Origin: an uncultured Lachnospiraceae bacterium
GTDB lineage: Bacteria; Bacillota; Clostridia; Lachnospirales; Lachnospiraceae
NCBI GenBank assembly: GCA_945864145.1
Contig: CAMBAN010000011.1
Coordinates: 1 to 41,639 of the forward strand
Reading direction: 5' to 3'
DNA length: 41,639 nucleotides
Part shown: positions 18,025 to 35,113 of the stretch, piece after piece
Numbering within the stretch: the stretch's first letter is position 1
Layout of the letters: each line of letters begins with the position of its first letter
Notes under the pieces: model-generated
What the model saw: the letters and a program-made list of their open reading frames with translations, nothing else
What the model was told of the DNA's origin: nothing
Database searches by the model: none
Position numbers and translations under genes: made by a program

Positions 18025-19614
18025 ATGGCAGGATATGTTTTAGGAATAGCATTCATTATTTTACTTTGTATCATAGCGGAAAAGTTTTCTGGCTATTTTG
18101 GGATGCCGGCCCTGATTCTTTTCATGTTTATTGGAATGTTATTTGGGTGTGATGGCATTTTTAAGATTAGCTTTGATGACTTTACGCTTGCTGAAACGGT
18201 ATGCTCACTGGCTTTGGTTTTCATTATGTTCTACGGTGGCTTCAGTACGAAATGGAGTGCTGCAAAGCCGGTTGCAGGAAGAGCTATTTCCTTATCTACG
18301 CTTGGAGTAATCATAACAGCCGGTATCACGACTGTGCTTTGTCATTTTCTGCTGCATATGTCATTGGAAGAAAGCTTTCTGGTGGGAGCTGTACTTTCTT
18401 CGACAGACGCGGCAAGTGTGTTTTCTATCCTTAGAAAGAAAAAGCTTAATTTGAAGGATGGAACAGCCTCTATTCTGGAAGTGGAAAGCGGAAGTAATGA
18501 CCCGATTGCCTATATGCTGACCATCATTGCAATCAGCTTTTTAGGAGCTTCCGATTCCGGGAATGTGGTTTGGATGGTAGTATTGCAGATTGTCGTAGGT
18601 ATTTTAGTTGGATTTTTGCTATCTGTGGTTTCTATACAGATTACAACAAAAACAAATATCGTGTCAGACGGATTAGATACTATTTTTATGATAGCGATGG
18701 TATTAGGCTGCTACAGCATAGCTGCCATACTGAAGGGAAATGCCTATTTGAGCCTGTATATTTATGGAATTATCATAGGAAACAGCAGGATTAGCAATAA
18801 ACAGACTCTGGTTCATTTTTTTGATGGAGTGACAAGTCTGTCACAAATTTTGGTATTTACACTAATTGGATTATTAAGTTATCCAAGTCAAATGCCCAAA
18901 ATCATCCCTACCGCACTTGTGATAGTAGCGATTTTGACATTTGTTGCAAGACCAATTGCTGTATTTTTACTGATGCTTCCTTGCAGGTGCGGATTAAGAC
19001 AATGTTTATTGATTTCATGGGCAGGATTACGAGGAGCTTCTTCCTGCGTATTCGCTATCATGGCAGTCGCTTCCGGGGTAACGATGAAACAGGATTTGTT
19101 TCATATTGTGTTTATGGTAACACTTTTCTCTGTTGCCTTTCAGGGCGGTTTGCTGCCACTGATTTCTAATAAATTGCGCATGGTTGACAGTGAAGCGGAT
19201 GTCAGAAAAACCTTTACGGATTATCAGGAGGAAACAGCATTGCAGCTTATGCGAATGTATATTCCGGAGGGACATAGCTGGGCTAACAGAAAAGTAAAGG
19301 AAGTAAATATTCCGCAGGGGTCTTTAGCACTTATGATAAAAAGGAATAAGGAAACCATGATTCCCAAAGGAGATACCATGATTTTACCAAATGATACAGT
19401 CATACTAAGTGTACCACCTTATGTTCCATCGGAAGATGAAAAACTCGAAGAAATAGTAATTGACCAGGCACATAAATGGTGTCGAAAGACAATCGGAGAG
19501 CTTGGTCTTGGAGATGATGAGTTGATTGCCATGATTTTCAGGAATGAGGAAACTATCATTCCGGATGGAAAAACCACAATTTTGGAAGGTGACAGGGTTG
19601 TATTGTACAGATAG
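18025..19614 (+). CDS. NhaP2-type K+/H+ antiporter with TrkA-C domains
   Basis: This 529-residue monovalent cation:proton antiporter of the CPA1 family has a membrane domain over about 1-385 with the motifs 'AVLSSTDAASVFSIL' (near 130-144) and 'LEVESGSNDPIAYML' (near 151-165), the ion-binding Asp lying in SNDP. The C-terminal 145 residues hold two TrkA-C-like modules ('VNIPQGSLALMIKRN...GDTMILPNDTVIL' and 'LGLGDDELIAMIFRN...GKTTILEGDRVVLYR'), which sense nucleotides or ions. It probably expels K+ in exchange for H+. It starts 42 nt after the DUF368 gene and is the last gene of the presumed Mn-controlled operon. Confidence 0.93.
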   Translation: MAGYVLGIAFIILLCIIAEKFSGYFGMPALILFMFIGMLFGCDGIFKISFDDFTLAETVCSLALVFIMFYGGFSTKWSAAKPVAGRAISLSTLGVIITAGITTVLCHFLLHMSLEESFLVGAVLSSTDAASVFSILRKKKLNLKDGTASILEVESGSNDPIAYMLTIIAISFLGASDSGNVVWMVVLQIVVGILVGFLLSVVSIQITTKTNIVSDGLDTIFMIAMVLGCYSIAAILKGNAYLSLYIYGIIIGNSRISNKQTLVHFFDGVTSLSQILVFTLIGLLSYPSQMPKIIPTALVIVAILTFVARPIAVFLLMLPCRCGLRQCLLISWAGLRGASSCVFAIMAVASGVTMKQDLFHIVFMVTLFSVAFQGGLLPLISNKLRMVDSEADVRKTFTDYQEETALQLMRMYIPEGHSWANRKVKEVNIPQGSLALMIKRNKETMIPKGDTMILPNDTVILSVPPYVPSEDEKLEEIVIDQAHKWCRKTIGELGLGDDELIAMIFRNEETIIPDGKTTILEGDRVVLYR

Positions 19615-19671
19615 GCGGTGTAAAGTATATCTTAGAAGTTATTTTATATAAAAGAGAAAGGGGTCATTTAT

Positions 19672-19698
19672 ATGAAACGATATGTAATGTTTGCATAG
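19672..19698 (+). CDS. 8-codon leader peptide of the CD3324-like gene
   Basis: This ORF encodes MKRYVMFA and ends in GCATAG. AAAGGGG lies 10 nt upstream. The stop codon is followed directly by a hairpin and then by a second hairpin that covers the ribosome-binding site of the next gene. The same layout, including GCATAG plus GGCTATTGCAA, recurs at 20180, which makes chance unlikely. Confidence 0.65.
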   Translation: MKRYVMFA

Positions 19699-19770
19699 TG
19701 TTGGCTATTGCAATCAGATAAAGTTTTGTTATAGCCAATGCTGTCCTTAGACAATAACACATAAGGAGGC
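19699..19770 (+). promoter_or_regulatory. erm-like translational attenuator
   Basis: Stem 1 is TTGGCTAT (19701-19708) with ATAGCCAA (19731-19738). Stem 2 is TCCTTA (19744-19749) with TAAGGA (19762-19767), which masks the AAGGAGG site of the CD3324-like gene. TGTTAT (19727-19732) can instead pair with ATAACA (19754-19759), which would open stem 2. No T-tract follows, so control is at translation. A ribosome held on the 8-codon leader would disturb stem 1 and free the start site. Confidence 0.6.
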
Positions 19771-19774
19771 AAAC

Positions 19775-20050
19775 ATGGGCTATATGAGAGCAGAGGAAAT
19801 TCTGCCATTAGAAGTGATAGAAATGATACAGCAGTATGTAGATGGAGCAAATATTTACATCCCGAGGAAGGAAAATAATCGTTCAGGCTGGGGACAGGCA
19901 AATCACACAAGAGAAAGGCTGCGAACGAGAGATGAAGCGATATATCGCGAGTATCTGGCTGGCAGCAAGGTAGAGCATCTTGCGGAAAAATATTATTTGT
20001 CGGATAAAAGTATTTGGAGAATTATTCGTAACAGAAAAAATGCTGTATAA
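19775..20050 (+). CDS. CD3324-family small DNA-binding-like protein
   Basis: This 91-residue protein resembles the CD3324 family, related to Mor-type activators. It has 'AEEILPLEVIEMIQQYVDGANIYIPRKENNRSGWG' at residues about 5-39 and a C-terminal helix-turn-helix ('YREYLAGSKVEHLAEKYYLSDKSIWRIIRNRKN', about 55-88). It is probably a transcription regulator; its targets are unknown. AAGGAGG lies 7 nt before the ATG but is masked by the stem described just upstream. A terminator follows, so it is a single-gene unit. Confidence 0.85.
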   Translation: MGYMRAEEILPLEVIEMIQQYVDGANIYIPRKENNRSGWGQANHTRERLRTRDEAIYREYLAGSKVEHLAEKYYLSDKSIWRIIRNRKNAV

Positions 20051-20059
20051 AAAATCTTT

Positions 20060-20091
20060 GAGAGCTTGCTTTGGAGCAAACTCTCTTTTTT
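20060..20091 (+). terminator. terminator of the CD3324-like gene
   Basis: GAGAGcTTGCT pairs with AGCAAaCTCTC around a TTGG loop, followed by a run of T. Confidence 0.9.
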
Positions 20092-20179
20092 AATTCTAAA
20101 AGAAAACGAGGTATAGAAACAAAACGGTCTGAGATAGAATAGAGATGTTCTTATTTTTGATGAAAAGGAGGAATTTCAA

Positions 20180-20206
20180 ATGACAACACCTCATTACAAT
20201 GCATAG
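20180..20206 (+). CDS. 8-codon leader peptide of the DUF1062 gene
   Basis: This ORF encodes MTTPHYNA and, like the leader at 19672, ends in GCATAG. It has a very strong AAGGAGG (20165-20171) at good spacing, better than that of the main gene. Such a strong site before an 8-codon frame suggests it is really translated. Confidence 0.72.
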   Translation: MTTPHYNA

Positions 20207-20278
20207 CACGGGCTATTGCAAATAAAAGAAAAAATACAATAGTCTGTGCATATTTCCCAAAAGAGAATAAGGAGATAT
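20206..20278 (+). promoter_or_regulatory. erm-like translational attenuator of the DUF1062 gene
   Basis: GCACGGGCTATTG (20206-20218), starting at the leader stop codon, pairs over its full length with CAATAGTCTGTGC (20237-20249), using two G-U pairs. ATATTTCC (20250-20257) pairs with GGAGATAT (20271-20278), covering the ribosome-binding site of the DUF1062 gene. The motif GGCTATTGCAA (20211-20221) is identical to the one after the leader at 19672. Confidence 0.65.
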
Positions 20279-20281
20279 GAC

Positions 20282-20812
20282 ATGAACTATGTAGATAATT
20301 TATCATATAAAATTATGCCAACACAAAACTTTCAAATTGTCAGAGGTTGCGCAGGATGTGGCAGTAAGCAAAATTTTTTAAACAGAGAGCATTTCAGGGT
20401 AAATGCAAATGGGAATCGTTTGGATGTATGGTTGATTTTTGGATGTGAAAAATGTGGACACACCTATAATTTACCGATTTATGAAAGGGTAAATCCGGGA
20501 AAAATTCCGAAGAAAGACTATGAGAGATTTTTATCAAATGACAAAGAGCTTGCTTTTCAGATAGGGGTAACAAAAAGGATGTTTTCAAAAAATAAAGCAG
20601 AGATTGCAAAAGAGAGTATCACGTATGAGCTTATAGAAATGCAGAAAAGCAACATGGAGTCTGCAGGAGATTGCTTGGAAATAATTCTGTATAATCCATA
20701 TGACATCCCTGTCAGAAATGAAAAAATCGTAGCAGAAATCTTACATGTGACCAGGGCAGAAGCAAAAAGAAAGCTTGCAGAGGGGAAAGTTATTGTGAGG
20801 CAGGAAAAATGA
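20282..20812 (+). CDS. DUF1062 protein with zinc-ribbon motif
   Basis: This protein of about 176 residues has two CxxC pairs, 'CAGCG' near 23-27 and 'CEKCG' near 54-58, which probably form a zinc ribbon as in other DUF1062 proteins. The C-terminal part ('VRNEKIVAEILHVTRAEAKRKLAEGKVIV') is S4/HTH-like, suggesting nucleic-acid binding. The family's function is not known to me. The ATG at 20282 follows AAGGAG, which is masked by the stem at 20250-20278. A separate leader peptide and hairpin control it, so it may respond to stalled translation. Confidence 0.85.
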   Translation: MNYVDNLSYKIMPTQNFQIVRGCAGCGSKQNFLNREHFRVNANGNRLDVWLIFGCEKCGHTYNLPIYERVNPGKIPKKDYERFLSNDKELAFQIGVTKRMFSKNKAEIAKESITYELIEMQKSNMESAGDCLEIILYNPYDIPVRNEKIVAEILHVTRAEAKRKLAEGKVIVRQEK

Positions 20813-20826
20813 TTTGCTGCGTAAAT

Positions 20827-20864
20827 GAAAAAACCACGTGTACCAAAATAGTAGGTACACGTGG
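20827..20864 (-). terminator. terminator of the TetR-DUF998 operon
   Basis: CCACGTGTACC (20834-20844) and GGTACACGTGG (20854-20864) form an 11-bp perfect stem. Only on the minus strand is it followed by a T run, so it ends the minus-strand operon. It may also slow plus-strand transcripts from the DUF1062 gene. Confidence 0.88.
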
Positions 20865-20876
20865 GTGTAATGATAA

Positions 20877-21497
20877 CTAAATAAAACGTCCTTTCATGAG
20901 GTAGATGCCCAAAATGCCATTGAATACAACGGCAGAAAAGGTGCTGAATCTTTCAAATAGTCCAAATACTGTTTTAGGTAAAAGAGCGGTACCGATTGGA
21001 CCGATTAACATAGCTGCAAGACAAACAATTGCCCAGATGCTAAGAGATTTCATTTGTTCCTTTCTTGCTCCGATTGCTACTAAGACTAAAGATGATAAGG
21101 AAAGGATAACGACCAGTGCTGTCACAGCAAGATGCATAAAATTTTGAGGATTGGAGGCTGGTGCATCCTTTATCCATGGAAAAAGGTTATATCCAACATC
21201 ACATACCCATTCCATGGCAGCAAAAAAGTAAATGCCTGACTTCAATATTTTTGATTTGCAACCAACGACACCAATGCAAACTGCCATAATAGATATCAGA
21301 CCGCATGGTCCAAACAGTGCATTCAACTGATTAGCAAGGGCTTGTGAGGGTGCTCCCTCTGCACTCAAATCACTCACTGCCATGCTCAACCAATCATATC
21401 CCGGATACGCCAGTGGGGAAAATACCACCATTGCTGTGTAGGACAGTAAGCTTATGATTCCCAGTATACCAAGTGTTCTTATTCTTTTTTCTAACAT
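20877..21497 (-). CDS. DUF998 membrane protein
   Basis: This 206-residue protein has six hydrophobic segments and the DUF998 pattern 'YPGYDWLSMAVSDLSAEGAPSQALANQLNALFGPCGLISI' near residues 32-71. Function is unknown. It lies 32 nt after the TetR gene on the same strand and shares its promoter and terminator, so it is most likely a target of that regulator. Confidence 0.88.
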   Translation of the reverse strand: MLEKRIRTLGILGIISLLSYTAMVVFSPLAYPGYDWLSMAVSDLSAEGAPSQALANQLNALFGPCGLISIMAVCIGVVGCKSKILKSGIYFFAAMEWVCDVGYNLFPWIKDAPASNPQNFMHLAVTALVVILSLSSLVLVAIGARKEQMKSLSIWAIVCLAAMLIGPIGTALLPKTVFGLFERFSTFSAVVFNGILGIYLMKGRFI

Positions 21498-34889: not shown

Positions 34890-35060
34890 AAATAAGTTTC
34901 TCTTCTAGCGCCAGGTACCTGTGGGAACGGAAAAAAAGAGCAGGTTAACGAGGAAAAGGGTTATCGAAAAATTCGGCGGACGCCCTTTCGTACTTCCCAG
35001 TGCGAGATACATCGGCAAATATGCGGGCAACTGCAAAACAAATACGGTGTAATGGGATAC
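34890..35060 (+). ncRNA. glmS ribozyme
   Basis: The sequence after TCTA|GCGCCAG (cleavage expected between A34907 and G34908) follows the glmS ribozyme consensus: AGCGCCAGG, 'GTTAACGAGG' (34944-34953), 'GGGTTATCGAA' (34958-34968), 'TTCGGCGGACGCCC' (34972-34985), and a 3' region with 'GCGGGCAACTGCAAAACAAATACGG' pieces. This RNA cuts itself when glucosamine-6-phosphate binds, which destabilises the glmS mRNA. It lies just before the glmS gene, as expected. The 3' end is approximate. Confidence 0.94.
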
Positions 35061-35113
35061 TATTGATAAGAAATCAAAGAGTATGAAATAGATTGAAAGA
35101 AGAGGAAATTTAT

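Follow-up and report, generated by a model that had tools for sequence, protein, structure and literature searches.

Two adjacent genes of an uncultured Lachnospiraceae bacterium are each preceded by an 8-codon open reading frame and a copy of the same 11-mer, which raises the question of whether each gene is controlled by a ribosome within its leader and, if so, by what signal. The window (the whole stretch of DNA that was analysed, 41,639 nucleotides) contains the following features, with the segments of each leader element numbered 0, 1, 2 and 4.

19655-19698, + strand: leader 1, a Shine-Dalgarno region and the 8-codon ORF MKRYVMFA (ATG at 19672, TAG at 19696-19698).
19687-19698, + strand: element 1 segment 0, the last leader codons and the stop, ATGTTTGCATAG.
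19699-19713, + strand: element 1 segment 1, TGTTGGCTATTGCAA.
19726-19749, + strand: element 1 segment 2, TTGTTATAGCCAATGC, then the anti-Shine-Dalgarno TCCTTA (19744-19749).
19762-19785, + strand: element 1 segment 4, with TAAGGAGG, GCAAAC, the ATG (19775-19777) and codons 2-3, GGC TAT.
19775-20050, + strand: CD3324-family gene for a Mor-like DNA-binding protein of 91 aa (NF040785, E 6.3e-31; PF08765 (Mor), E 4.4e-10).
20060-20085, no strand assigned: terminator-like hairpin with a T-run, between both units (listed by the scan on the - strand only).
20163-20206, + strand: leader 2, a Shine-Dalgarno region and the 8-codon ORF MTTPHYNA (ATG at 20180, TAG at 20204-20206).
20206-20221, + strand: element 2 segment 1, GCACGGGCTATTGCAA.
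20237-20257, + strand: element 2 segment 2, CAATAGTCTGTGC, then ATATTTCC (20250-20257).
20271-20292, + strand: element 2 segment 4, with GGAGATAT and the start codon ATG (20282-20284).
20282-20812, + strand: DUF1062 gene, 176 aa (PF06353, E 1e-33).

These coordinates confirm the first-pass annotation, which had noticed that both leaders end in GCATAG and are followed 4 nt later by GGCTATTGCAA. The sole exact copies of this 11-mer in the window lie at 19703-19713 and 20211-20221, with two more sites at one mismatch, and both leader regions folded better than 200/200 dinucleotide shuffles (z -4.0 for the first and -3.6 for the second). The stems TCCTTA/TAAGGA and ATATTTCC/GGAGATAT are both present as claimed; the sequestration ascribed to them stands in so far as the TCC/GGA stem exists, but this stem is only part of the closing, as the leader end can also pair with the gene start. 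In element 1, segment 0 has as partners either segment 1 or GCAAACAT at 19769-19776, and this 0:4 pairing belongs to the minimum-energy fold; in element 2 the 0:4 pairing is poor. A terminator had been said to divide the two units, and a T-run hairpin does lie between them, but it is listed on the - strand only because its + strand stem has one C.A mismatch. The region before leader 1 showed no strong promoter-like site. Elsewhere in the window, a gene for a CPA1-type potassium/proton antiporter with TrkA_C domains (18025-19614) ends 58 nt upstream of leader 1, a DUF998 membrane protein gene (20877-21497, - strand) is convergent with the DUF1062 gene, and a glmS riboswitch/ribozyme (34896-35061, + strand, 70.3 bits) is followed by a 613-aa ORF at 35093.

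The pattern GCATAG-N(2-8)-GGCTATTGC was present in 26/200 genomes of the family compared with 9/200 for a reversed control pattern, some of the 26 being coincidences inside coding frames. Scanning genome contigs gave at least 118 stretches, of which 15 were inspected by eye, while all fetched loci were inspected by script. The listed matches on viral contigs and most of those on genome contigs were set aside, keeping cases where a leader is followed by a gene of either family; L011, L026, L051, L193, L201 and L210 were dropped as chance pattern matches. One relative (G122) carries the same pair of elements at an identical spacing of 508 nt, and the double-element observation is not due to chance.

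A covariance model of relatives' leaders, as the first-pass annotation had proposed, was built from 29 true elements (model R1, alignment A1) and found 58 matches in 47/393 genomes of the order. At phylum level 3/398 genomes matched, the window's own among these, and in that genome both the bare pattern and R1 found the two copies described here only. Neither R1 nor CD3324 matched anything in G196, the sole same-genus companion of the window genome, so the presence of R1 is patchy. Outside the family, named carriers among the matches listed include Heyndrickxia sporothermodurans, Clostridium sardiniense, a Defluviitaleaceae assembly and a Sphaerochaeta assembly; assembled metagenomes may be contaminated. 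Rfam gave no match at the gathering threshold, and weak chance-level matches only at a relaxed one. The first-pass annotation knew of no description of this leader class for these gene families, and none was found in open-licence PMC literature on DUF1062, CD3324, Mor activator and leader/attenuator, though it may be in print elsewhere. The papers retrieved for CD3324 concern nematode primers and those for DUF1062 are unrelated judging by their titles; the passages searched in PMC11109978 contain no uORF of this kind.

The element is linked exclusively to the two gene families that had been named. Applied to 87 loci, R1 gave 108 matches, which left 94 distinct elements after dropping duplicates and a 66-nt part-match: 65 precede CD3324 and 26 precede DUF1062 (91/94 assigned), 3 are cut by the locus end, and no third gene family was seen. 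The converse fails, as a CD3324 protein scored above the cut-off in 105/393 genomes, many without R1; a CD3324 match is also present in B. subtilis. For DUF1062 there were 19 matches in 18/196 genomes of the order: 7 with their own R1 element, 5 after an R1-led CD3324 gene, 1 after a CD3324 gene with a weak leader of the second sequence class (class II, below), and 6 with no element of their own and no CD3324 gene led by an element nearby. No CD3324 match was found in phage records, and the 5 plasmid records with CD3324 include none from Lachnospiraceae.

From a second alignment (A2), 13 duplicate rows were dropped together with two antisense part-matches of 66 nt that were identical to each other; L306 was left out for lack of a recognised stop, yet it has TAG too. 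In class I (80/92 elements analysed), segment 0 is ..TTTGCATAGC with the stop, segment 1 is GCAAAGGCTATTGCA, segment 2 is AATAGCCTTTGC..TCC and segment 4 is GGAG..GCAAAATGAGCTAT. Class II (12/92) has the same plan in other letters, GCTCAG-TAG-TCTGAGC and then AAGCTCAGA. Segments 0 and 2 each suit both 1 and 4, and all four resulting pairings co-vary. When pairing energy within an element was compared with that between elements (92 elements, 2000 permutations), z was -12.7 for 0:1, -15.5 for 1:2, -7.4 for 2:4 and -11.1 for 0:4, with 0/2000 permutations as good in each case, values that are inflated by related sequences and come from tests that are not independent, because segment 0 is similar to segment 2 and segment 1 to segment 4. 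Two control pairings over the 92 elements showed no co-variation (z -0.9 and -0.5). In a subset of 23 mutually unlike elements, z was -5.6 (0:1), -7.0 (1:2), -3.9 (2:4) and -5.7 (0:4). The 1:2 helix was 97.4% paired over 95 distinct rows, in an alignment that was fitted to the helix itself, and its covariation was 0.377 versus 0.178 when shuffled and at most 0.097 when slid; two-sided pair changes were the weak one of five measures (6 versus 4.9 shuffled, reached by 49/500). The four pairings together with the 1:2 helix constitute mutually exclusive helices with compensatory changes. Codons 2-3 of the controlled gene read NGC TAT in the CD3324 and DUF1062 families alike, which suits a role in segment 4 more than a role in the protein.

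How the position of a ribosome would affect this fold was computed with a model in which the ribosome covers the RNA as far as 13 nt beyond the first base of the P site (an assumed footprint edge) and the cost of opening the gene start is determined; co-transcriptional folding is ignored and RNA upstream of the ribosome is counted as absent. For 47 thinned elements the mean predicted cost was 10.4 kcal/mol for ribosome-free RNA; it was 7.8 and 7.5 kcal/mol when the P site lay 5 and 4 codons, respectively, ahead of the stop and 13.0 kcal/mol once the stop was in the A site, whereas block-shuffled controls stayed flat near 8 kcal/mol at all positions. The minimum fell 4-6 codons before the stop in 41/47 elements, and the early position was cheaper than no ribosome in 43/47; the model was also run for all 92 elements. 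Element 1 follows the predicted dip (9.0, 5.2, 11.9). Element 2 does not, with costs of 6.4 without a ribosome, 6.1-6.4 early, 7.5 at -4 and 12.9 at the stop. Default sequestration with release by a halted ribosome is thus seen in the model for most of the 47 and for element 1, and not for element 2.

We consider it probable that the two genes have separate translational attenuators, each responding to where a ribosome is located in its 8-codon leader. In a leader free of ribosomes, or once translation has terminated normally, the gene's start codon and ribosome-binding site would be buried, either by segment 2 (when 0:1 is formed) or by the leader end through 0:4 (when 1:2 is formed). A ribosome at the leader stop would cover segments 0 and 1 and free segment 2, shutting the gene, while one halted after 3-5 codons would cover segment 0 only, so that 1:2 could form, segment 4 would be free and the gene could be translated. 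Translational coupling or re-initiation, in which any passing ribosome opens 0:4 and output simply follows leader translation with neither stalling nor a stress signal, would agree with the co-variation of 0:4 and with its place in the minimum-energy fold of element 1. However, the folding model predicts that the gene start closes rather than opens when a ribosome has reached the leader stop (13.0 versus 10.4, and above the early position in 46/47 elements), and competition between 1:2 and 2:4 would be needless, making coupling an improbable explanation.

A leader attenuator further requires that the short ORF be translated. The start, Shine-Dalgarno sequence, stop and length of the predicted leader ORF are conserved, with no start found for 5 class I elements; its length is 8 codons in 63/80 class I and 9 codons in 11/12 class II leaders. 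The stop is TAG in 91/92 elements, a count that is partly built in, because the first pattern and the class I stop rule both require TAG. Together with the ORF, the 11-mer region and compensatory base changes are kept in relatives, so the element passed the conservation check that had been suggested for it. The two window peptides had been described as different, which they are, but each belongs to a group that recurs, MTTP.. or ..[RK]YV.., and neither group is strictly bound to one gene family. Under one rule, 26 of the 92 leaders fall in a ..TP.. group and 36 in an [RK]-aromatic/aliphatic-[VI] group, which leaves 30 outside both, and these groups mix across the CD3324 and DUF1062 families. 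A specific stalling peptide is therefore not general, since 30/92 leaders fit neither group. In class I, codon -4 (codon 5 of 8) specifies Val or Ile in 45/80 leaders; in class II, R/K at -6 and V/I at -4 are each present in 12/12, at the same places as R-Y-V of class I.

The predicted halt site coincides with codons 2-5 of the leader. Over these codons, 34/68 single-base codon differences were synonymous compared with 25% expected (p 9e-6), in nearest-neighbour pairs that were picked by the RNA after the stop and are not fully independent; counting all changed codons, 34 were synonymous and 78 non-synonymous. The excess of synonymous change indicates that the leader peptide is under some selection. 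Codon counts within the MTTP group, which was selected by peptide, constitute no test of selection, the nearest-neighbour pairs being the unselected one.

The leader might instead be a protein-binding site for feedback, perhaps by the S4-like DUF1062 protein or by CD3324, with the short ORF secondary. Both products look nucleic-acid binding. The DUF1062 protein has a zinc ribbon (C23xxC26...C55xxC58 in the alignment) and a putative C-terminal S4-like domain. The window protein itself gave no Pfam S4 match at E up to 1, and 4/24 DUF1062 relatives matched S4 weakly at this threshold (best 0.0034), while a divergent protein (L339) passes both the S4 and the DUF1062 cut-offs. Against feedback, DUF1062 is not always present (the element occurs in 47 genomes of the order and DUF1062 in 18/196), and the start, stop, length and codon bias of the leader are conserved, so that we regard this explanation as quite improbable. 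DUF1062 also occurs in 57 plasmid records, including Streptomyces, Agrobacterium and Klebsiella, and one Klebsiella plasmid record has it next to genes for amino-acid transport and MdtM efflux. Least credible is attenuation that senses tRNA charging or amino acid supply, as in amino-acid operon leaders, which would share ribosome position in a short ORF as its input and fits the recurrence of MTTP.. and ..[RK]YV.., but no residue is repeated across leaders, different residues are used by one element family before the same gene family, and the controlled genes are not biosynthetic.

Upstream regions of CD3324 genes were also read, 52 from genes without an R1 match and then 20 more. A box coding LHAK[PS]V with CTCCATGCAAAGCCAGT was found in 14/72 and can pair alternatively with TTTGCATGGAG or TGCTGGCTTTGC. 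In 12 aligned sequences both helices are kept (97.0% and 98.0% of cells), with few two-sided changes (4 and 5 cells), and RNAalifold pairs the last segment with the gene start too. The position model predicted a shallower dip for this class, 8.2 versus 9.3 without a ribosome and ~11.5 later (n=14). A covariance model (R2) matched 4/398 phylum genomes, every match lying before a CD3324 gene, one of them broken, and HAK-like leaders precede CD3324 on Pseudalkalibacillus and Paenibacillus plasmids. By these predictions, a further group of CD3324 genes has an attenuator of a second class that follows the same logic. Also before CD3324, a leader type ending ..QRL with GCAAAGACTG was seen at five loci (L364, L365, L369, L371 and L442), in one genome with six CD3324 genes, in Paraclostridium and in others; another type (L370, L383, L387 and L402) has CTCTATGCAACACA-like boxes and two apparent alternative hairpins. 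Several other upstream regions that were read showed no clear element.

The neighbours of CD3324 bear on the signal. Taking the next gene as the longest same-strand ORF starting within 500 nt, a crude rule, 61 rows gave 19 DUF1062-like proteins (18 by signature, plus L339), 9 GNAT acetyltransferases and 6 methyltransferases (raw counts, both gene types being common), 2 Vat-like proteins, 1 FusB-like protein and 2 RNHCP-domain proteins (L022 and L295); the next gene at one more R2 locus is Vat-like. The Vat- and FusB-type neighbours fall short of the NCBIfam cut-offs (Vat 235-250 of 300 bits, FusD 124 of 450), which makes them relatives and not proven resistance genes. CD3324 is also fused in a single frame to APH-type (L405 and L406), GNAT (L404 and L407) and methyltransferase (L408) domains, and the last of these fusions has a class II leader. 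At six further loci (L403, L410 and L412-L415) a CD3324-like domain is followed by a C-terminal region of no assigned family, close behind an upstream gene and with no leader; L403 gave no Pfam family match. No known resistance gene is under control in the window, where the controlled genes are CD3324 and DUF1062, and FusB- and Vat-type genes lie directly after CD3324 in some other genomes only. From this neighbourhood (Vat-, FusB-, acetyltransferase-, methyltransferase- and APH-type) and the conserved codons of the halt site, we infer that halting occurs and that its trigger is a ribosome-targeting antibiotic or a similar translation stress.

In the erm/cat attenuators (ermC, cat-86), a four-segment scheme is used in which the gene is opened by a ribosome halted inside the leader. 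A likeness to these systems had been proposed for the window, and it holds more fully than claimed, the 11-mer being segment 1 of a four-segment switch: in both, a short leader that carries a ribosome-binding site of its own is combined with hairpins that exclude one another, a sequestered start and, here by prediction, halt-dependent opening. Unlike in erm/cat, the leader stop here lies inside the 0:1 hairpin and two different segments can close the start; the controlled genes are CD3324 and DUF1062, and no sequence kinship was seen. Firmicute uORF control tied to ribosome-targeting drugs is also reported for the ARE ABC-F genes vmlR and cplR, in which an ATPase is said to be controlled. While vmlR reportedly uses transcription attenuation as well, no + strand terminator-like site was found in the window at 19400-21000, and the 1:2 hairpin is not followed by a T-run.

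For pairing between leader and gene start, the closest studied case is E. coli toiL/topAI, where, according to PMC12121999, uORF sequence is paired to the downstream gene's ribosome-binding site, which becomes free on stalling in the uORF, and tylosin stalls the ribosome at Val5. toiL reportedly opens wherever the ribosome stalls, whereas for the present leaders opening is predicted on an early halt only, and the genes and RNA differ. The V at codon 5 and the RYV of the present leaders may resemble Val5 of toiL and an RYR stall in B. subtilis cited in PMC12121999, an analogy that serves as a lead only.

More tentatively, Firmicutes may contain a large and so far undescribed set of ribosome-stress modules whose shared first gene, controlled by an attenuator, is CD3324, a proposal that we find possible though on balance doubtful. 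At least two unrelated-looking attenuator classes would sense an early-halted ribosome, CD3324 would relay the response, and an interchangeable partner (DUF1062, Vat-like, FusB-like, acetyltransferase, methyltransferase or phosphotransferase) would protect the ribosome or alter the drug. If this module reading is true, DUF1062, which combines a zinc ribbon with an S4-like domain, would represent a new protection factor that binds the ribosome or tRNA. The attenuator reading itself would place two families of unassigned function on the short list of those under ribosome-position control, through a folding logic where either of two segments can shut the gene. With the models R1 and R2, resistance-type genes that have escaped recognition in Firmicutes of gut and soil could be searched for, and the codons of the predicted halt site (TTP, RYV) make the sensed drug or stress directly testable.
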